A stretch of DNA of 41,223 nucleotides from Pedosphaera parvula Ellin514. Lineage in GTDB: Bacteria; Verrucomicrobiota; Verrucomicrobiia; Limisphaerales; Pedosphaeraceae. This document shows positions 24,941-37,749 of the stretch, one piece after another. The translations under genes and the position numbers were made by a program. The stretch spans positions 1-41,223 of the forward strand of contig NZ_ABOX02000058.1 of assembly GCF_000172555.1 (NCBI RefSeq), in the 5' to 3' direction. The notes under the pieces are model-generated. The model made no database searches and was not told where the DNA came from. It worked only from the letters and a program-made list of their open reading frames with translations. The first letter of the stretch is position 1, and each line of letters begins with the position of its first letter.

Positions 24941-26182
24941 CTAAAACTTATAGACGAGGTTCGCAATGATTTCGTAAGCATTGCGGCGGCTGCCACCGAG
25001 AGGGTCGGTGACGAGAGTGTTGACATTGGATTCACCGTAAGCTCTGCCGGTGCCATCCGCCTGATGATCCCAACGTGCTTCCAAACGGCTGATCACGTTC
25101 TTCCAGAGATCATATTGCAATGTTCCAGTGAGCGCGAACACCTTGGAAGGCAACCCGGTCACGGCCTGCGATTTGGACTGAGTGAACCACTCAGCACGGC
25201 CATTCAGGCTCATCTTCTCCGTAACCTGATAGGTGGCGTAGAAGCTGGCAGCGTTTGCATAGCCAGAGTTTGGAACTCCGGGCTGTTTGGATACCCCGGC
25301 ATAGTCATAGGCAGCGCCCAACTTCAAGGCCTGGATAGGCGTATTCAAAGTACTGCCAGCATAGAAGCTGGTTTGATTCGCTTTGCCGCCATTGATCGAG
25401 CCGGCATTGAAACCATTGATGATGCCACCATACAAGGTGGAACCAGCAACCCATCCCCAATCTTTGGGAGCAGTAAATGAGGCGGAACCCATGTAAGTCT
25501 TGTAGGATTCAGCTTTCGGACCGCTCGCGAATGGGTTTGCGGTAGGAAAGGCGCGGGAATTGATCACTGGCCCGAATGTATTGGCAATGCCAGCTGAGAA
25601 GCCAAGCATGTCACAGACTTGATAGGAAGCGAGAACACCGGTGTGAGTGGTAGGCTCGATTGTGTAACCGTAGGAACGGGTAAAGTTCGGGTTGTTGCCC
25701 GATTCAAAAACTTCGTATCCAACGATGGTGTCGAACACACCCAGTTTGACGTCCAGTCCGTTACCAATCGGAGCTTTCAAGTCGACGTAGGCTTGCTTGA
25801 TTCCGAAATCTGAACCAACAGTATTACCCAATCCGCTGGATGTGGTATTGAAGAAATTGGCATCGGGCCCAAACAAAAGATCGGTCTTGTAGCCTGCACC
25901 CCAGCCATCAGCAGCATCAGCGGGCTTTTCGAGGGTCAGCTTAACAACGTTAAGATTAAAACCATCCGCCTTGTTCGGAGTGTTAAAGGCATACTTGGGA
26001 TTGTTTAAATTACCCGTTCCCAAATTCCACTGTGCTGAGGTATCAACATACCCGCTCAGCATGGTCGAAGAGAGCGTGGTCATGACTGAGGAGGGTTTTG
26101 CTGCTTCCTCGGCCTGCACGACTGATGCGAGACTGACCACTCCAACGGCGGCTAATCCCAATGTCCATTGATTAAACTTCAT
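24941..26182 (-). CDS. Outer-membrane beta-barrel porin, OmpL-like (BBP2 type), paralogue 1
   Basis: The ATG at 26182 gives 413 residues, with an AGAGGA site 10-12 nt upstream. The signal peptide 'MKFNQWTLGLAAVGVVSLAS' is cleaved after V-Q-A. The mature protein is beta-strand rich with the putative beta-barrel porin-2 pattern: 'LSGYVDTSAQWNLGTG', 'KADGFNLNVVKLTLEKP', 'DFGIKQAYVDLKAPIGNGLD', 'VGYEVFESGNNPNFTRSYGY', and a final strand ending Y-K-F. It shares the signal peptide, domain order and strand sequences with the porin at 26579. Function is presumably passive solute uptake; the solute is unknown. Each porin gene has its own terminator. Confidence 0.88.
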   Translation of the reverse strand: MKFNQWTLGLAAVGVVSLASVVQAEEAAKPSSVMTTLSSTMLSGYVDTSAQWNLGTGNLNNPKYAFNTPNKADGFNLNVVKLTLEKPADAADGWGAGYKTDLLFGPDANFFNTTSSGLGNTVGSDFGIKQAYVDLKAPIGNGLDVKLGVFDTIVGYEVFESGNNPNFTRSYGYTIEPTTHTGVLASYQVCDMLGFSAGIANTFGPVINSRAFPTANPFASGPKAESYKTYMGSASFTAPKDWGWVAGSTLYGGIINGFNAGSINGGKANQTSFYAGSTLNTPIQALKLGAAYDYAGVSKQPGVPNSGYANAASFYATYQVTEKMSLNGRAEWFTQSKSQAVTGLPSKVFALTGTLQYDLWKNVISRLEARWDHQADGTGRAYGESNVNTLVTDPLGGSRRNAYEIIANLVYKF

Positions 26183-26578
26183 CTTTAGGTTCCTCTGGTT
26201 AGTTAGTTTTTTTTGCGTTCTGAGCCAACACCCTTCCACTACCGATTGCATTGAACATCTGGGTGAAACCTTAAACCGATTTAAAGAAGCCGAAATGTTA
26301 CTACTGGCTTCAAATAATCAAGTAACAAAATTGCAATCCCACCAAGGCAATAATCATGCCACAAGGCACAATTGATGTAAGACTCTATAACATGGCCCTT
26401 TACACACTGACAGCCATTCTTCTTCTTCTGGAAAAGCAAGGTCGAAAAGACTCACATTGCCTAAATATCGCCAAAGTCTGTGTGCGAAATTCAGAATCAA
26501 AACAAGCGTGAATTAAGTCTCTTTGATGAGAAAACTCCTCTCGCTTTTCTCGAGAGGAGTTTGTGCAGTTCAATTGAA
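26183..26578. other. Interval between the porins: leader of paralogue 1 and terminator of paralogue 2
   Basis: No gene. Left side (26188-26207): the Shine-Dalgarno region and ten-base motif GTTAGTTAGT (plus strand, 26198-26207) shared with the other porin leader. Right side: the terminator hairpin at 26526-26563. The A/T-rich middle is a plausible place for a leftward promoter, but no clear hexamers stand out. Confidence 0.6.
26526..26563 (-). terminator. Terminator of the second porin gene (leftward)
   Basis: A 12-bp perfect stem AAACTCCTCTCG / CGAGAGGAGTTT (26532-26543 with 26551-26562) with a 7-nt loop. On the minus strand it is followed by a short T-rich tail (TTTTCTC). It starts 16 bp after the stop codon of the upstream porin. 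Confidence 0.85.
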
Positions 26579-27841
26579 TTAGAACTTGTAGATTACGTTT
26601 GCCGCTATGATGTAGGAATTGCGGCGGTTGCCAGTGCTCGCCAATCCAGGCGGCGTATCCGAATTCAGCAAGGGGGTACCAGTTCCGCCGAAGGCAGTGG
26701 AACCATCCAACGCATGATCCCAACGAATTTCCAGTCGGCTGATGACGTTCTTCCAGAGGTCATACTGGACAGTGCCCGTCAGAGCCAGCATTTCGCTCGC
26801 AACACCGAAGTTATTGGCCTGGAAGCCCGAAGCAAGCGACTTCGACATGGTGGCATACTCACCACGAACATGCAGGCTCAGTTTTTCTGTAGCCTGGAAT
26901 GAAGTGTAGAGCGCTACAGCATTTGCATAAGCCGAAGGAGTTGTACCGCCAGCATCGGACTGTTGGCTGATGCCTTCATAATCATACGAGGCACCGACGC
27001 GCAGACCTTGGACAGGTGTTGCAACAGTCGTGCCAACATACAAACTGGTTTGGTTTGCCTGCTGAGCATTGTTGAAACCGTTGATGACACCGCCGTAGAG
27101 TGAAGAACCGGAGATGAATCCCCAATTATCAGGTGCAGTCAAAGCGATTGAACCCATATATGTCTTATAGGATTCAGCTTTGTTGCCGCTCGTAAGAGGA
27201 TTCACAGTCGGGAATGCGCGGCTATTAATAATGGCGGACTCGGTGTTGGCGATGCCAGCAGCCAAGGCAACATTGTTATTAATGCGATAGGTGGACAACA
27301 CACCCGTCTGGGTGGAAGGTTCAAAGGTGTGACCCCAGGAACGGGTGAAGTTCGGGTTATTACCCGCTTCAGTGGATTCATAGCCGATGATGCTATCAAA
27401 TACACCCACCTTGAAATCCAAACCATTACCCACTGGAGCACGCAGAGCAACGTATGCCTGCTTGATGGCAAAGTCGGAAATAGCTACGCCACTAGATGAG
27501 GTGCCAAGACCAAACGGGAAAAGGTTGGCATCAGGTCCGAAAAACAGATCGGCCTTGTAACCAGCAGCCCATTCTGCTTCGTCCAGCGGCTTTTCCAAAG
27601 TAACCTTGACGGCATTGAGATTGAAACCGTCAGCCTTGGTCGAACCACCATATTTATATGCCGGAGCATGGCTGTCACCAGTCCCGATATTCCACTGCAT
27701 TGAGGTGTCCACATATCCACTAAGGACGGTAGACGAGAGAGCGGTCATGACCGTGCTGCTCTTCTCTTCGGCCTGAGCCGCAGATGCGAGGCTTACTGCC
27801 CCGACCGCTGCCAGACCCAATGTCCATTTATTAAACTTCAT
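26579..27841 (-). CDS. Outer-membrane beta-barrel porin, OmpL-like (BBP2 type), paralogue 2
   Basis: This 420-aa protein has the signal peptide 'MKFNKWTLGLAAVGAVSLAS' cleaved after A-Q-A and the same barrel pattern as its neighbour: 'LSGYVDTSMQWNIGTG', 'DGFNLNAVKVTLEKP', 'IGYESTEAGNNPNFTRSWGHTFEP', and a terminal V-I-Y-K-F strand. The start has a strong GGAGG site 6 nt upstream. The two porins are about half identical by eye, including a 'NKAESYKTYMGS' versus 'PKAESYKTYMGS' segment, and probably arose by tandem duplication. The leader carries two stem-loops and a possible promoter (see separate entries). High expression is likely from the strong ribosome site and leader. Confidence 0.88.
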   Translation of the reverse strand: MKFNKWTLGLAAVGAVSLASAAQAEEKSSTVMTALSSTVLSGYVDTSMQWNIGTGDSHAPAYKYGGSTKADGFNLNAVKVTLEKPLDEAEWAAGYKADLFFGPDANLFPFGLGTSSSGVAISDFAIKQAYVALRAPVGNGLDFKVGVFDSIIGYESTEAGNNPNFTRSWGHTFEPSTQTGVLSTYRINNNVALAAGIANTESAIINSRAFPTVNPLTSGNKAESYKTYMGSIALTAPDNWGFISGSSLYGGVINGFNNAQQANQTSLYVGTTVATPVQGLRVGASYDYEGISQQSDAGGTTPSAYANAVALYTSFQATEKLSLHVRGEYATMSKSLASGFQANNFGVASEMLALTGTVQYDLWKNVISRLEIRWDHALDGSTAFGGTGTPLLNSDTPPGLASTGNRRNSYIIAANVIYKF

Positions 27842-31341: not shown

Positions 31342-32640
31342 TCAGAAGTCTACCTTCATCCTGAGACCGAGTACAACCGAGGTCTCGGTACGTCCCAGGA
31401 TGGGCGTGATCACTTGCAGATCAGGCGTGATGTGACACCAAGGCGTCACCCCCACATTGTAGAAGATCTCCACACCACGCTCGTCGCGCACCGGCGTGAT
31501 TACTCGGGCAACATCCTTAAAGTCGCCACTGAACCCCAGGTAATAATACGCCAGGCCGAAGTAGTCCTGCCTCCGGTCGCGGATCGGACTGCTGCCGCCG
31601 ACGCCAAAAATGGCGGACCATTGTATCGGGTTTGGCTTCCCGTCGCTGATGCCGGCATTGCCGAACACGCCCCAATTGCGCGTTTGATCCGTCGGGTCCA
31701 CCCATAGCGCTTGGTCGAATAAGTACGTGACCCACCAGGAACCCCGTTCAAGAGTTGTCGGGGGCAGCCCCGTGGGGATTTGATTCAAAGATTGCTGTTC
31801 CACGATCGCATAGCGCCCGGAACTGTACACTCCCCAGAGGCTCTGGTGTCCCGGCATGCCGAAAAACTTCGTTGGCAGGCTGGCGGTGGGATAAATAATC
31901 GCCCCGTTGTCGAAGGCGTCCTTGAAACCGGTCTCGGTGGCGGCATTGTGGGTGTCATACACGGTGAGCGATAGCACGGGGTAACTTTGGGACAGGATCG
32001 CCGCTCCGGCTCCCAGCGTCGCGTAGTTCATCGTCCGCCCCAGGATCGGGTTCCAAACGAACGCGGCGTTCATGAACCCGGCGTCAAGTCCATGCCCAGG
32101 CATGAACGGCTGCTGCACATTATCAATCGTGTTGATCTTCCCGGCGTACACGAGGAAATTTTCCGAAAGCGCCTGGGTGAACTTGACCGCGGTCAGAGCG
32201 CCCGCGGTCCCGAAAAAGACCGGATGGGCCCGGCCGATATTCACCGGCACGATCGCCCCAGTCTCGGAGTTGACCGAATCGCCATAGACGGCTTCGCCGT
32301 GGAGGGTGAGGAAGAGCCCTGGCCACAACCCCGCCTTCTGGCCGTCCACGTTGAGCCAATAATCACTGCGGCCCCCGAGTTCGGAGTCTTGCTCCAAGCC
32401 GCCCCTGGCAATCCCCTGGTAGTACGCGGTCGCGCTGATGTCGAACGTAAAGCCGTGGTCGCGGAGTTGCTCGCGCACACCGCCCCAATCCCCCGTCAAC
32501 TTCAGCCGGGTGTCCCAGGGACCGCCGAACGGGGGCGGTTGCGGAGTCGCCCCGGCGTCGCCGCTGTTGCCCGCGCGCGCATCGCCGGATGCGAGGCACA
32601 GGACAGCCAGTAATATGTGGATATAACGCAACATGGACAT
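31342..32640 (-). CDS. OprB-family carbohydrate-selective porin
   Basis: The ATG at 32640 (432 aa, M-S-M-L-R-Y-I-H) is preferred over the upstream in-frame start at 32703, which falls in the DUF3237 gene. A signal peptide is cleaved after A-R-A. The mature protein matches OprB: 'RLKLTGDWGGVREQLRDHGFTFDISATAYYQG', 'DYWLNVDGQKAGLWPGLFLTLHGEAVYG', 'LDAGFMNAAFVWNPILGRT', and the C-terminal 'VEIFYNVGVTPWCHITPDLQ' with a last strand ending in Phe. OprB porins let sugars, and related porins other small solutes, cross the outer membrane. It is the last gene of the tyrosinase-fusion operon, 16 bp after the DUF3237 gene. Confidence 0.9.
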   Translation of the reverse strand: MSMLRYIHILLAVLCLASGDARAGNSGDAGATPQPPPFGGPWDTRLKLTGDWGGVREQLRDHGFTFDISATAYYQGIARGGLEQDSELGGRSDYWLNVDGQKAGLWPGLFLTLHGEAVYGDSVNSETGAIVPVNIGRAHPVFFGTAGALTAVKFTQALSENFLVYAGKINTIDNVQQPFMPGHGLDAGFMNAAFVWNPILGRTMNYATLGAGAAILSQSYPVLSLTVYDTHNAATETGFKDAFDNGAIIYPTASLPTKFFGMPGHQSLWGVYSSGRYAIVEQQSLNQIPTGLPPTTLERGSWWVTYLFDQALWVDPTDQTRNWGVFGNAGISDGKPNPIQWSAIFGVGGSSPIRDRRQDYFGLAYYYLGFSGDFKDVARVITPVRDERGVEIFYNVGVTPWCHITPDLQVITPILGRTETSVVLGLRMKVDF

Positions 32641-32656: not shown

Positions 32657-33109
32657 TCAGGGGGAATACGCGGTAACCTCAATAATTTGCCTGGCGACAT
32701 CAAGGGTCCCGACTCCCCACAACTGAAGTTGGTTCACCCACGTGTACTCGTTTGAAGAAGCAAACAGTGTTATGTTTACGCGGACATCAGCAATCTCGCC
32801 GTCCGGCCGAAGTATGGCCACCCCCTCGCCTTGGGCAGCAATGTTTTGCCCGTCCACCGTCCTGATTGTTTCATGAATGTGCAGCTCAAAGCGGCCATTC
32901 GGGCGGACTAGGACGTAATCAATTCCCTCGACAGCGCCATTGAGCTTGGCGCCGGTCGCTGTGCCTTCGAAAGCGACGTCGAACCTTGTGCCTTCAACTG
33001 GTGGCGCCACTTCCCCGGCCATCAATGCCGCAAAACTGACGCCGTACTCCTTCATGCCGGTGATGTTCAAGCTCACCTTGTATAACTCTCGGACTTCAAT
33101 CGTGCTCAT
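32657..33109 (-). CDS. DUF3237 family protein
   Basis: The ATG at 33109 (150 aa, M-S-T-I-E-V-R-E-L) is preferred; 33136 would add nine residues that overlap the upstream gene. It shows the DUF3237 pattern: a first strand pair 'YKVSLNITGMKEYGVSF', then 'GAVEGIDYVLVRPNGRFELHIHETIRTVDGQNIAAQGEGVAI' (His-rich strand region) and closing 'NEYTWVNQLQLWGVGTLD'. The family is a small lipocalin-like beta-barrel of unknown function, sometimes encoded near aromatic or sugar degradation genes. No signal peptide was seen, so it is probably cytoplasmic, unlike its neighbours. It lies 13 bp after the SMP-30-like gene. Confidence 0.85.
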   Translation of the reverse strand: MSTIEVRELYKVSLNITGMKEYGVSFAALMAGEVAPPVEGTRFDVAFEGTATGAKLNGAVEGIDYVLVRPNGRFELHIHETIRTVDGQNIAAQGEGVAILRPDGEIADVRVNITLFASSNEYTWVNQLQLWGVGTLDVARQIIEVTAYSP

Positions 33110-33122
33110 GACTGCTTCAACC

Positions 33123-34160
33123 TCAGTGGGGAACACTCGGTATGTGCTTCTTGATTTTCGAGACCGTGTGGAGCTTCACCTGGGCCGCCCACGGTCCATC
33201 AACCGTGCGCAGACTCGGGGATGACACGGCGGCAACATCGGCGGAGAGGTTGGTGACCAGCACGTCCTCACCGTGGAAGACAAGACTGTTAGACCAGAGG
33301 AAACCAATGGGCGCGCCGTCTTTGTCAATGCCGCCGAAGTCGCCGAGCTTCGCGATCACCCGGCCTTGCGTCGGCTCGAGCACCATGATCTCGTCGGACT
33401 GATTGCACGCGATCCAGAGGTTGTCGTCCTCATCAATGATGATCCCGTCCGGTCCACCGCCCGCGCGGTTGACGAAGACCTCGGGCGTTCCAGCCTTAAG
33501 CGGCGAGCCGCTCACCGGGATTTTAATAATGGTGTCGTTCGCTGTGTTCGGGACGAACAGCACCGTCTGCTCCTTGTTGAACGCCAGGCCATTTGCGCCG
33601 ATCGCCGGTGGTGGTCTTGTCGGCTTCAAGAGCGGGCTCTTGACCCAGATCTCGCCCGCGCCGCCTTCCGGTCCAACTTTCCAGATCAAGCCCTGGTGGG
33701 CATCGGTGACATACAGATTTCCAGCGTCGTCGAAGGTCAATCCGTCGAGGCCGGGATGCTCGCCGGTGACGGTCATGAACACTGAGGAATCGCCCGTCTT
33801 GGCATCGACAGCGAGGACCTTCGGGTCCTCGTAGTCGATCACGATAAGTTTTCCGTTCTTCGGATGGAAGCGGAGATCTAGCAGCATCCGGCTTGAGCCG
33901 GCAATGTGGACGGTCCGCAGGTACTTGCCGTTAGGGTCAAACACAAGAAGCGTGCCCGGAGTACCTTTTGGCTTGTTCGCCGCCACGGTAACAACGTAGA
34001 CGTTCCCATCGGGACCGAGGCAAATCCCCTCTGGATAGGCCTCACCTGCGGGCAGCGTGGCGAAGCGCTCGACTTTGCCGCGCTCCCAGGCGTGCAGAGG
34101 GATCGGCGTCGCCAGCATCGTCAGCAGCATTAGAAACGTCCTGGCTGTGATCATTCTCAT
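33123..34160 (-). CDS. SMP-30/gluconolactonase-like six-bladed propeller protein, exported
   Basis: The ATG at 34160 (345 aa) has GAGGTG about 5 nt upstream and begins a clear signal peptide (MRMITARTFLMLLTML, cleavage after L-H-A). The mature part shows the repeating blade pattern of the SMP-30/gluconolactonase/LRE family: 'YPEGICLGPDGNVYVV', 'LDLRFHPKNGKLIVIDYE', 'LDGLTFDDAGNLYVTDAH', 'ANGLAFNKEQTVLFVPNTANDTI', 'PDGIIIDEDDNLWIACNQSDEI'. The E at the first blade and N/D residues in 'ANGLAF', 'NTANDT' and 'PDGIIID' are candidate metal ligands for lactonase activity. It could instead be a non-catalytic propeller. It lies 48 bp after the Kelch-tyrosinase gene and is very likely co-transcribed. 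Confidence 0.87.
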   Translation of the reverse strand: MRMITARTFLMLLTMLATPIPLHAWERGKVERFATLPAGEAYPEGICLGPDGNVYVVTVAANKPKGTPGTLLVFDPNGKYLRTVHIAGSSRMLLDLRFHPKNGKLIVIDYEDPKVLAVDAKTGDSSVFMTVTGEHPGLDGLTFDDAGNLYVTDAHQGLIWKVGPEGGAGEIWVKSPLLKPTRPPPAIGANGLAFNKEQTVLFVPNTANDTIIKIPVSGSPLKAGTPEVFVNRAGGGPDGIIIDEDDNLWIACNQSDEIMVLEPTQGRVIAKLGDFGGIDKDGAPIGFLWSNSLVFHGEDVLVTNLSADVAAVSSPSLRTVDGPWAAQVKLHTVSKIKKHIPSVPH

Positions 34161-34208: not shown

Positions 34209-36833
34209 TCATCGGACTGCCACCGCGCTGGTTAACTGCTTTGCTTCCTTCAGCACCAATGCGGGATCATTGAAGGGCTGGTCACTGATGCGCTGCGAGC
34301 GGACCCGGCCCTGCGCATCGATGAGAAAAATCCCGTGCAATGGCTGATTGTCGAAATCGACACACCGGTAGGCCTTGAAAACGTCCAGTTTCGCATCTGA
34401 CAGCAGGGGGAACGGAACGGTGCCTTCTGCCTGCGAATCGGCCTGCGATTTTTTGAGATCTTCAGGCGAATCGGTGCCGATGGCGACCAGATCGATTCCG
34501 CCGTCTGCAAACTCGCGGGCCTGTTTCGCGAAACTCTTGAGCAGCCCCGCGCACCGGACGCAACCAGAGCCTTCGTAGAAAATCAGCACCAGCGGCCGGC
34601 CCCGGTATTTACTAAGCGAGACGGTCTTGCCGGAGCCGTCGGGGAGGTTCCAGGCCGGCGCGGGCGTCGCCACACTGGACGGGGCGTCACTCGCAGGATT
34701 GGCAGGTGAAGCCCGGACGGTCAGGCTGGATTCCGGCTTGGGCGGCTTGGCATAGTTGTCATATTCGTAGCCGAGCTGCGCCGTGCGGTTGCCAGCGCCG
34801 ATTGGCATGTCCACGCGTTTGCCGTTTCTGTCCGCGTAGGTGAACTTCCGATTGAGGAACCTGGGATCGGCTGGATTGCTGTTGCCCAGCCGATTCCAGC
34901 TTTCCCAAATCCGGTCCAGGTTGGCGTGATGGAGATAGAAGATCGGATCACCGCCAACGGTGGAGAAGTCGGCCATATCGCCGCCGAGGGCGATGTGAGT
35001 GAAGAAGTGAGGGTTCTGATCCAGCCGGTTGCAGAACCCAAGGGCGCCGGTCGGCGAGTCGATGTAGAACTTCTCGTTAAGACAGTCCAAACTCAGCCAA
35101 CCCATGACGGGCTTATCGAGCCGCTCCCCGCCATTGACCCAGGGATAGCGAGTGCTGTTAAAGAGCTCGCTGGCCGGATCGCGAAGAGCGAACGGGAGCG
35201 AGAGATCCGCTTCGTTTCCGGTAACGGGGTTCCAGTAGGGCAGCGTAAAATCGTCATCCTGCGACACCTCGCGAATCGTCTGCTCAAACTGATAGAGCAT
35301 CAGGCGATGCCAGGGCCAGATGAACCACTCTTGATATTGTTCCGGGTTATCCGGATTCATCGGGTGGGCCTGACAGCCGTCCCACGTGGCCTCGGCGAGG
35401 GATTGAACACTCGACGGGAGTGAGGCGATGGCGTCCGTCTTGACCTTCATGGATTCCTCCCACATGACCACCGGGTATCCCTTCATCCAGTGCGTATTCC
35501 ACCACCACTGCCACGAATGGGTATCGGATTGGGGCAGCTTCCGCATTAACATGACGGCCCGCGCGTACTTCTGGAGCATCTTCTGGCCTTCGGGACTCTT
35601 GATGTCATAACGGATGCGGACCTTCGTTTGGCCTTGGTCCGACGCCGCCCTGCCCTCGCTCTTGCCGGTCTCGGTCTCGCTCTTGCCGGTCGCGGCGTCA
35701 CTCTTGCCGGTCGCGGCCTCGCTCCTGCCGGTCGCGGCCTCGCTCTTGCCACCAGGTATCTCGAGGATGTCAGTTGACGACGTGTGAACTTCGAGTTTCG
35801 GGTCTTGCATCACCAGCGCCCCGGCAGACTGGATCATCCCGCTGGCCAGGTAGAAGCGATTGCCAATCACCGCGCCGGCAACGCCGTGACGGGGCATCGG
35901 CATGGGGGGCAGCGTCATCCAGGAGTTGATTGCTGGATCGTATGCCTCTATGGCTCGAAACGCGCCGACGAGCGCCCTGGTCGTCACCTCGCCGCCGGCC
36001 ACATAAATCAGGCGTCCGTCGGTACCGCTGGCACCGCCGCTTCGGGCCGTCGGCATCCGTTCCTTCGGGGCGCTCCAGACGTCATTGGCGGGATCGTATT
36101 CCTCGACCGCATCCGTGTTGCTGGCGGACATGATGAATGCGTGGCCGGTGCGGCCGCCGATCACGTAGATCTTGTTGTTGATGGCGGCGGCGAACGTGTG
36201 GTTGCGCGGCACCGCCATCGGCTTGCGGCTCTCCCACTTGTCCGTGGCGGGGTCGTACGCGTCGTTGGCGGCCAGAACGTTACACGGTCCCATGAACGTG
36301 AAGAACGGGGTCTTGGACCCTTCCACGGTCGTGGCGCCGCCGATCACGTAGATCTTGCCGCGCACTTCCACGGCCACCGCGGCTCCGCGCTTGCCGGGAA
36401 GCGGCGCCAGCTCCTTCCAGGAATCGACCGCCGGGTCGTATTCCCAAACGTTGTCGATCGGTTGCCAGGCAGCACCGATGGGCATCGGGCTCTTCTCCGG
36501 GGCGACGAAACCGCCGAACACGTAGATCTTGCCGTTGTAAGCGGCCAGGGCCGGATGGTGCGCCCGCAGCGGCATCGACGTTTTCTTCGTCCATTTGTCG
36601 CCGTCCGCGTCGTACTCGTAGTTGACGCCGCGGGCCTTGCCATCGCCCCAGCCGCTCATCACGTACATCTTCCCGTTGCAGGCAACGCCGTAGTATTCTT
36701 CGTCCGGTTCCGGGAACGGCGCCCCTTTCTTCCAGGGAGATGGCGGCATCTGAGCCAGCCCGGACGTGGTGAAGATCAAGCTGGCTATGATGGCAGCCAG
36801 AATGGCCACGCTCCATGAAGCGCGTTTATTCAT
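34209..36833 (-). CDS. Exported Kelch-tyrosinase-peroxiredoxin fusion protein
   Basis: One intact frame of 874-883 aa encodes three modules. I prefer Met at 36833 (MNKRASWSV, signal peptide, cleavage after L-A-Q); 36860 is the alternative, and residue numbers below count from 36860. Module 1 (about 55-345) is a Kelch propeller with six repeats of the type G-K-I-Y-V-F-G-G (near 63, 110, 168, 229, 283 and 334). A linker of five 7-residue repeats (371-405) follows. Module 2 (about 410-705) is a tyrosinase copper domain: CuA region H448, H457, C496-x-x-H499 and '[12 protein letters not shown]' (H518); CuB region H618-x3-H622 and '[15 protein letters not shown]' (H644/H645). Module 3 (about 735-875) is an AhpC/TSA-like thioredoxin fold with C767-V-R-C770. 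It probably oxidises phenols outside the cytoplasm, with the Cys pair handling peroxide or thiols; this is inferred. Confidence 0.88.
35646..35750 (-). repeat. Five 21-bp in-frame tandem repeats in the fusion linker
   Basis: Five imperfect copies encode [28 protein letters not shown] and GKSEGRA. Copy 1-3 DNA is nearly identical (core CTTGCCGGTCGCGGCCTCG on the plus strand). They form a charged, flexible hinge between Kelch and tyrosinase modules, and as in-frame 21-mers they can change number without breaking the protein. Confidence 0.9.
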
Positions 36834-37483
36834 TTGGATTTCTAACGTTCTAGCTTTCATCGCTCATTATTTGTTCGTTGTTGTTGTCCGTTGTTTGTTT
36901 ATTTGAAGCCTCGTTCCGAGGACGCCCTCCAAAAACGCCAGAGTTTTTGCGCCGCAGATGGCGCACGCATTACTATCAGAGCGGTGCCGTTCTGCGCATC
37001 GCGCGCTGTTCAGTTCCAGAAGCGGAAAGCTGGTTTTCATTCGTCAGGTAATGCACCGCAAAACTTCAAGGTTCGCCAAATTTCCAACCTGGCTTTCATT
37101 GTTTCTTGTTTTGCCGTGTGGTCATTTTCTGACGTCCGAGGAAGCCCTGTCAGAACGATTGAGCCTTGGCGACTGGTATGTTCCTCATTTAGGAACTTTA
37201 TACATACAAATCGTTGTTCTCCTGTGACAACTATCAGGCCAAATCCCTGCTCCGTAAAAGATTTTGCTGTTTGCCTCAGCATATCTCGCAGGCATTGATT
37301 TAGGCGCTATGGAACTGCGTCAATCTGGCCTGTGGAGAGCAGTTGCCGCCCTAGAGACTTGGAAAGAGAATTCAAGATTCCTTGGCCATTTTCTTTGATG
37401 CACCACATTCTCCGCATCAGGTAGGTGGGACAACACCCCAGTTGAAATTATTGCCCCGGTTCCGTCGGCACGGGCGTAGCCAT

Positions 37484-37749
37484 CGCTATACCGAATGCCA
37501 AAAGAAATTTCCGAATGGCAGGAGGGATTTTGATTTGAGGCAAGGCGGAGGCCGCAGGCGCTATCTGAAAGATAGCGACAAGGGCGACAACGCCGCCTCA
37601 AATCAAAAGCACCCTGCAGCCAATGACTAATGAATTTCTTCGCCCCACAGTCATAATTTTTCAGCGTCCACTTTCATAAAACTTTTTACCCTCTTTGATT
37701 CAGTTTCCTTTCCCCATTTCGGAAATTAATTTTGGCATTCGGTATAGTG
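37484..37749. mobile_element. Inverted-repeat-bounded element enclosing a large palindrome (MITE/REP-like)
   Basis: The ends are an imperfect inverted repeat of about 35 bp: 37484-37518 and 37714-37749 share the core TTTTGGCATTCGGTATAG in opposite orientation, with about 30 of 34 bases matching. Near the left end lies the palindrome at 37528-37608. No transposase is encoded, so if mobile, it is non-autonomous. No target duplication could be recognised. It could also be a repeated intergenic (REP-like) sequence rather than a transposable one. Confidence 0.5.
37528..37608. repeat. Large interrupted palindrome with inner hairpin
   Basis: Outer arms TTTTGATTTGAGGC (37528-37541) and GCCTCAAATCAAAA (37595-37608) are a perfect 14-bp inverted repeat. 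Between them sits a second hairpin CGCTATC-TGAAA-GATAGCG (37559-37577). A GC-rich GGCGGAGGCCGC segment lies between outer and inner stem. The shape recalls REP or BIME units, or a structured RNA. Confidence 0.85.

Follow-up and report, generated by a model that had tools for sequence, protein, structure and literature searches.

A Kelch propeller, a tyrosinase core and a CxxC redoxin in one predicted exported protein of Pedosphaera parvula Ellin514

What a bacterial tyrosinase might do with a Kelch propeller ahead of its copper core and a redoxin domain behind it is the question raised by one gene of Pedosphaera parvula Ellin514. The gene (34209..36833) encodes 874 aa and lies in a 41,223-nucleotide stretch of contig NZ_ABOX02000058.1, referred to here as the window; the gene, its parts and the three genes that follow it are all on the minus strand. 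According to the available sections of a review (PMC9454253), bacterial tyrosinases have three general architectures, marked by a caddie protein, a β-rich C-terminal domain or a bare core, besides some that are debated. None of architectures I–III accommodates the fusion, which has a Kelch domain before the core and a short linker and a redoxin after it. The first-pass annotation of this DNA supposed that the trio had not been described before, and our literature search agrees, since no description of a Kelch–tyrosinase–redoxin fusion was found in the open papers searched. Neither of two tyrosinase reviews (PMC9454253 and PMC11608171) mentions Kelch in its main text.

The frame is open from the ATG at 36833 to the stop codon at 34209-34211, a length of 874 codons, and an alternative upstream ATG at 36860 gives an 883-aa reading. 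Pfam matched Kelch_1 (E = 3.7e-37), Tyrosinase (5.9e-22) and AhpC-TSA (1.3e-24) on the fusion protein, all above their cut-offs, which bears out the earlier proposal of three domains in a single intact frame, with tyrosinase and AhpC/TSA domains both found. All 15 NCBIfam matches fell below their curated cut-offs.

A scan of genome contigs from 84,980 species with peptide patterns drawn from the tyrosinase part of the fusion gave 11 pattern matches, of which four were confirmed as relatives; because the patterns came from one protein, more distant fusions may be missed. L056, from a Planctomycetaceae metagenome-assembled genome (MAG), carries all three domains in the same order within one 913-codon frame, and is 64.6% identical to the fusion over 912 columns. 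In L059 (Acidobacteria MAG), the contig end falls inside the tyrosinase, which is followed by AhpC-TSA in the same frame. L057 (Rokubacteria MAG; 751 codons) and L058 (Acidobacteria gp2 MAG; 783 codons) each encode Kelch and tyrosinase domains, stop in the linker, and have no redoxin. Among 21 tyrosinase ORFs, the Kelch profile was matched only by those of the window, L056, L057 and L058, and the redoxin profile only by those of the window and L056 (L059 not being in this set). Neither profile had a match in the 17 tyrosinase ORFs tested outside the fusion clade, and a Pfam scan of three ordinary tyrosinase ORFs found neither domain.

The fusion is also rare among the genomes related to its hosts. 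The 320 genomes of the window's order include nine that match the tyrosinase part (E of 0.001 or better), and only the window's own does so strongly; the other eight gave local matches with 30-48% identity and E values of 6.9e-11 or weaker. A sample of the window's phylum gave 6 matching genomes out of 387, again strongly only in its own. For the relatives, the counts were 18/396 in the phylum of L058, 1/95 in the phylum of L057, and 12/346 in the order of L056, with a best tyrosinase E value of 1.4e-34 outside the four known loci. For the window's phylum (387), the L058 phylum (396) and the L056 order (346), the best five or six candidates per genome were scored.

That assembly or binning had joined separate genes is hardly credible, even though the four relatives are MAG contigs and the assembly that contains the window comprises 102 contigs. 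Both domain junctions recur in L056 and one each in L059, L057 and L058, so that the Kelch–tyrosinase junction is found in three other MAGs and the tyrosinase–redoxin junction in two, which makes misassembly an unreasonable explanation. Mismatches between the window and L056 amount to 22, 20 and 41% at codon positions 1, 2 and 3, respectively (872 codons), a pattern that looks as expected for a selected protein with coding-type conservation along the frame, and two neighbouring genes are common to the window and L056. Misassembly, which the earlier reading had named among the findings that would overturn it, was therefore rejected. Taken from sequence comparison, the fusion is a real, rare and recurring architecture within a known enzyme family.

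The protein begins with a likely Sec-type signal peptide (residues 1-26; 36756..36833), identified by eye and similar in L056 and L057, both of whose proteins align with the fusion from the 36833 ATG onwards. Judged by its N-terminal hydrophobic stretch ending in LAQ, the fusion is probably exported. The Kelch domain follows (residues about 27-345; 35799..36755), as indicated by Pfam, PDB-type matches and a structural model. Six Kelch repeats were counted by eye, and the Kelch part of the predicted model matches the six-bladed SAKe6 designs and Keap1, confirming the six-bladed propeller proposed in the first reading. The AlphaFold model of the full fusion is confident in the Kelch part only (mean pLDDT of 43.8 for the whole protein). 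While the six-bladed Kelch fold is common to both, the propeller of the fusion, unlike those of Keap1 and SAKe6, is bacterial, exported by its sequence, and joined to an oxidase. A linker (35635..35760) containing a 21-nt tandem repeat (7 aa, GKSEAAT-like) leads from the propeller to the tyrosinase.

The tyrosinase core (residues about 405-700; 34734..35621) was delimited by Pfam and alignment, and its PF00264 match scores 79.5 bits against a gathering cut-off of 22.6. It ends in LGYEYD, which we take to be the Y-x-Y motif that closes tyrosinase cores. Alignment assigns H448 (35490..35492), H490 (35364..35366) and H509 (in PWHR; 35307..35309) as putative CuA ligands 1, 2 and 3, H609-x3-H613 (34995..35009) as putative CuB ligands 1 and 2, and one of the pair H635-H636 (34926..34931) as putative CuB ligand 3. 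Together with the Pfam match, these six type-3 copper histidines uphold the binuclear copper site claimed at the outset. H490 lies in C487-Q-A-H, followed by a longer loop and then W-P-W-H, and C487, the cysteine considered for a Cys–His thioether at CuA ligand 2, is spaced from it as C-x-x-H rather than C-x-H. The possibility that CuA ligand 2 is missing was rejected: the usual spacing would put this ligand nine residues ahead of the WH histidine, where the window has Tyr, but in aligned relatives the loop that follows C-Q-x-H is longer, and H490 is the likely ligand. Of the 22 tyrosinase rows in the alignment, the window among them, 20 have all six copper histidines; the exceptions are L059, whose sequence starts beyond CuA ligand 2, and L103, a distant row with Arg in that column. 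Outside the fusion clade, 16 of 17 tyrosinases have the same His at all six places.

In a tree of 21 tyrosinase rows, built after removal of L103, the five fusion-type cores form a single clade (100/100), which groups with rhizobial tyrosinases (94/92, not starred); within it, the window lies outside the other four (83/77, not starred). The nearest cores outside the clade are those of rhizobial plasmid tyrosinases (Bradyrhizobium WP_176540850.1 and Sinorhizobium WP_339073275.1; 33-38% identity), which carry C-Q-x-H like the fusion, with loops of differing length, but have neither Kelch nor redoxin. Tyrosinases of architecture II of PMC9454253, such as vsTyr of V. spinosum, share the PF00264 core, the six copper histidines and HxxxH with the fusion. 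They also share a cysteine close to CuA ligand 2 and the core-ending Y-x-Y motif, whereas the fusion has its C-x-x-H at CuA ligand 2 ahead of a longer loop, and its Kelch and redoxin domains in place of a β-rich C-terminal domain, which was not found. The accessible part of PMC10526336 gives vsTyr a Tat signal, in contrast to the Sec-like signal, by eye, of the fusion. Pfam gave no caddie family for the neighbouring window genes that were scanned.

The C-terminal domain is an AhpC/TSA-fold redoxin (residues 721-874; 34212..34673), identified by alignments and by a Pfam match over residues 722-846 (86.9 bits against a cut-off of 26). The AhpC/TSA-like fold with a CVRC motif given in the first-pass annotation thus stands, but its numbering, C767/C770, belongs to the 883-aa reading and becomes C758/C761 in the 874-aa protein. 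Compared with solved structures, the domain has its best profile matches in peroxiredoxins, and C758-V-R-C761 (34551..34562) occupies their T-x-x-C position: the peroxidatic Cys is aligned with Cys761, the Thr with Cys758, and the Arg with His833 (in PLHG; 34335..34337). The CxxC of ResA aligns with the C758/C761 pair too, although whole-domain scores are higher for peroxiredoxins than for ResA (68 vs. 52 bits in one search and 72 vs. 65 in another). The peroxiredoxin triad consists of Cys, Thr/Ser and Arg (PMC8300647, in the part available), and in Prx-like proteins the residue at that Thr/Ser place, three before the nucleophile, is Thr in 71.7% and Ser in 16.3% (PMC2757866, likewise). All three fusion redoxins carry Cys758 at the Thr column and His833 at the Arg column, and a canonical peroxiredoxin was rejected on this ground. 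Alignment with both peroxiredoxins and ResA, with the triad replaced, indicates that the third domain is a peroxiredoxin fold bearing a thioredoxin-like CxxC.

Two further redoxin families were compared. The SelL-related redox proteins have UxxU or CxxC instead of T-x-x-C; their model NF040769 (SelL_rel_redox) gave only a weak match to the fusion (25.2 bits, E = 1.1e-5), far below its curated cut-off of 120 bits. His833 was also considered against the metal-binding His of Sco proteins, whose position we presumed. The Sco copper chaperone was rejected, C758-V-R-C761 being CxxC and not CxxxC, a motif restricted to Sco-type proteins in the available part of PMC2757866. A third cysteine, C824 (34362..34364), is Cys in all three fusion redoxins and Ala in 18 of 18 related domains among the matches listed. 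AlphaFold modelled the redoxin alone with a mean pLDDT of 41.4.

The closest relatives of the redoxin within the window's order are C-terminal domains of long proteins, exported as judged by eye. Among the matches listed, at least 18 such ORFs (mostly about 800 codons) occur in 20 fetched stretches, six of them scanned in Pfam; their redoxins are 44-54% identical to that of the fusion and share its CxxC and PLHG, but the N-terminal parts are different, Ala replaces Cys824, and G-C-x-H-C (18 of 18 among the matches listed) stands against C-x-R-C in the three fusions. P-L-H-G is retained in all 21 redoxins (the three fusions and the 18 related among the matches listed), and a further such domain in the genome of L056 (L151) has C-x-H-C, Ala and P-L-H-A. 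The redoxin alignment and tree used 13 of the 18 related redoxins fetched, leaving out five; CxxC and H833 are invariant in all 16 aligned sequences, and the fusion redoxins form one clade (100/99). The long proteins (L026-L042 and L045) make up a widespread family, mostly of about 800 aa, with the CxHC redoxin at the C-terminus, the N-terminal pattern GHSxHG[ED]xFN[EQ]GPRQ in five of the five printed, and weak TPR matches in three of the six scanned.

The genomes of the redoxin-less L057 and L058 contain 14 redoxin matches with one in-frame TGA, among the matches listed. Four of the 14 were examined (L149, L150, L152 and L153) and are probable selenoproteins with the TGA at the active site. 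With TGA read as Sec, L149 and L153 have UxxC, which points to a redox-active Cys758 position in the CxxC proteins of this fold; L150 and L152 have U at the Cys761 column, by alignment the ordinary peroxidatic position.

We give an even chance to the proposal that the fusion is an exported type-3 copper phenol oxidase of new architecture, in which the redoxin is no peroxidase but acts as a dithiol, holding either the copper site or protein thiols in the reduced state. Its Kelch propeller sits N-terminal to the copper core, and its CxxC redoxin takes the C-terminal place where other long bacterial tyrosinases carry a β-rich shielding domain. The tyrosinase would oxidise soil phenolics to quinones outside the cytoplasm, the propeller would bind substrate or a partner and may shield the core, and the redoxin would work through its C758/C761 dithiol, reducing met Cu(II) to Cu(I), or disulfides, or quinones. 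The presence of L057 and L058, which do without a redoxin, speaks for this domain being an accessory that the oxidase cannot require in all hosts. The peroxide removal put forward in the first-pass annotation, with the redoxin as a working peroxidase that disposes of peroxide (or quinone) made by the oxidase, was not sustained and appears unlikely, given that the peroxiredoxin triad is gone, with Cys758 and His833 in place of the Thr (or Ser) and Arg usual in that family. What argues for it is the AhpC-TSA match itself, the alignment of C761 with the peroxidatic Cys of the best PDB profile matches, and a di-haem cytochrome c peroxidase gene (CCP_MauG; L058:7083-8165) that starts 23 nt after the stop of the L058 fusion, which has no redoxin. 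Three points count against the dithiol reading: the whole-domain score is nearer to peroxiredoxins than to ResA, the redoxin is absent from L057 and L058, and a peroxidase gene beside a fusion lacking the redoxin would fit a peroxide role. Nevertheless, a thiol–disulfide or copper-reducing role fits the residues better than a peroxidase, and a redox or copper-handling accessory seems the better hypothesis than a peroxidase partner.

Copper handling could also take the form of loading, with Cys758, Cys761, Cys824 and His833 passing Cu(I) to the tyrosinase in place of a caddie. The fusion-specific Cys824, the invariant His833, the lack of a shielding domain between core and redoxin, and the HMBD heavy-metal-binding protein encoded by the next gene in L059 make this possible; but the motif is not that of Sco, L057 and L058 have no redoxin to load copper with, and the HMBD protein is unmatched in the window and in the L056, L057 and L058 stretches, and we consider loading quite unlikely. 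Very unlikely is a purely structural role, in which propeller and redoxin serve only to cover the oxidase or hold it in place, with no catalysis by the redoxin. It would accord with the caddie or C-terminal shielding domains of known bacterial tyrosinases (PMC9454253, available sections) and with the dispensability of the redoxin in L057 and L058, but not with the invariance of CxxC and His in three fusion and 13 related redoxins.

A bolder reading, which we regard as doubtful, is a tyrosinase that services itself, its dithiol redoxin with Cys824 and His833 reducing or loading the copper site of its own chain. If so, the fusion would add a fourth class to the bacterial tyrosinase architectures, one whose catalysis could begin with no caddie, shielding domain or outside reductant. 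The available part of PMC9454253 states that the in vivo activation of bacterial tyrosinases lacks experimental data, and a tyrosinase with its own redox module would make this question testable through Cys variants of a single protein; it is also a possible starting point for phenol-oxidising biocatalysts that work without added reductant. Control of wetland carbon storage by bacterial tyrosinases, through removal of phenolics, has been proposed (PMC9454253 and PMC8375020, in the parts available), and the MAG that contains L056, the complete relative, is titled as palsa.

In the window, the fusion is followed after 48 nt by an SGL (SMP-30/gluconolactonase-like) gene (33123..34160; start chosen by eye), 13 nt further by a DUF3237 gene (32657..33109), and then by an OprB-family porin gene (31342..32640; start chosen by eye among ATGs at 32700, 32640 and 32634), all three assigned by Pfam. 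Downstream of the fusion, L056 has DUF3237 (74% identical) and SGL (74.6%) genes in swapped order relative to the window. L057 and L059 encode OprD porins that are 82-84% alike, in L059 after the HMBD gene; these belong to a different porin family from the OprB of the window. SGL and OprB have no match in the L057, L058 and L059 stretches. The neighbour sets of the window and the four relatives therefore differ, with none common to all. The T2SSF/sigma-54 and Mla blocks that flank the locus also occur in related genomes, G001 and G005, where they lie on separate contigs. Six stretches around the flanking genes in relatives, queried with the fusion, SGL and OprB proteins, gave no match. GC content is 0.60-0.62 for the fusion, SGL and porin genes, 0.55 for DUF3237, and 0.51-0.585 for 12 other window genes. 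The simplest reading of these sequence data is horizontal transfer of the fusion locus, in which the gene would move between soil bacteria at least partly with the SGL, DUF3237 and porin genes; the differing MAG phyla of the relatives could partly be binning errors.

Scans of the window for tRNA and Rfam families found none. Sigma-54 activators, 60.5% alike over 332 aa, are encoded some kilobases upstream of the fusion in L056 (L056:1397-2974) and L058 (L058:825-1970). In L057, a gene near the contig end encodes a GAF-domain protein (L057:6935-7882). Elsewhere in the window, two adjoining BBP2 outer-membrane porin genes (24941-26251 and 26579-27841) have similar 5′ ends and appear to be a tandem duplication. 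About 650 bp upstream of the fusion lies a 262-bp MITE-like element (37486-37747) with 30-nt terminal inverted repeats. The genome contains 94 pieces that match it, and by our count about 35 of these extend over some 220 bases or more.
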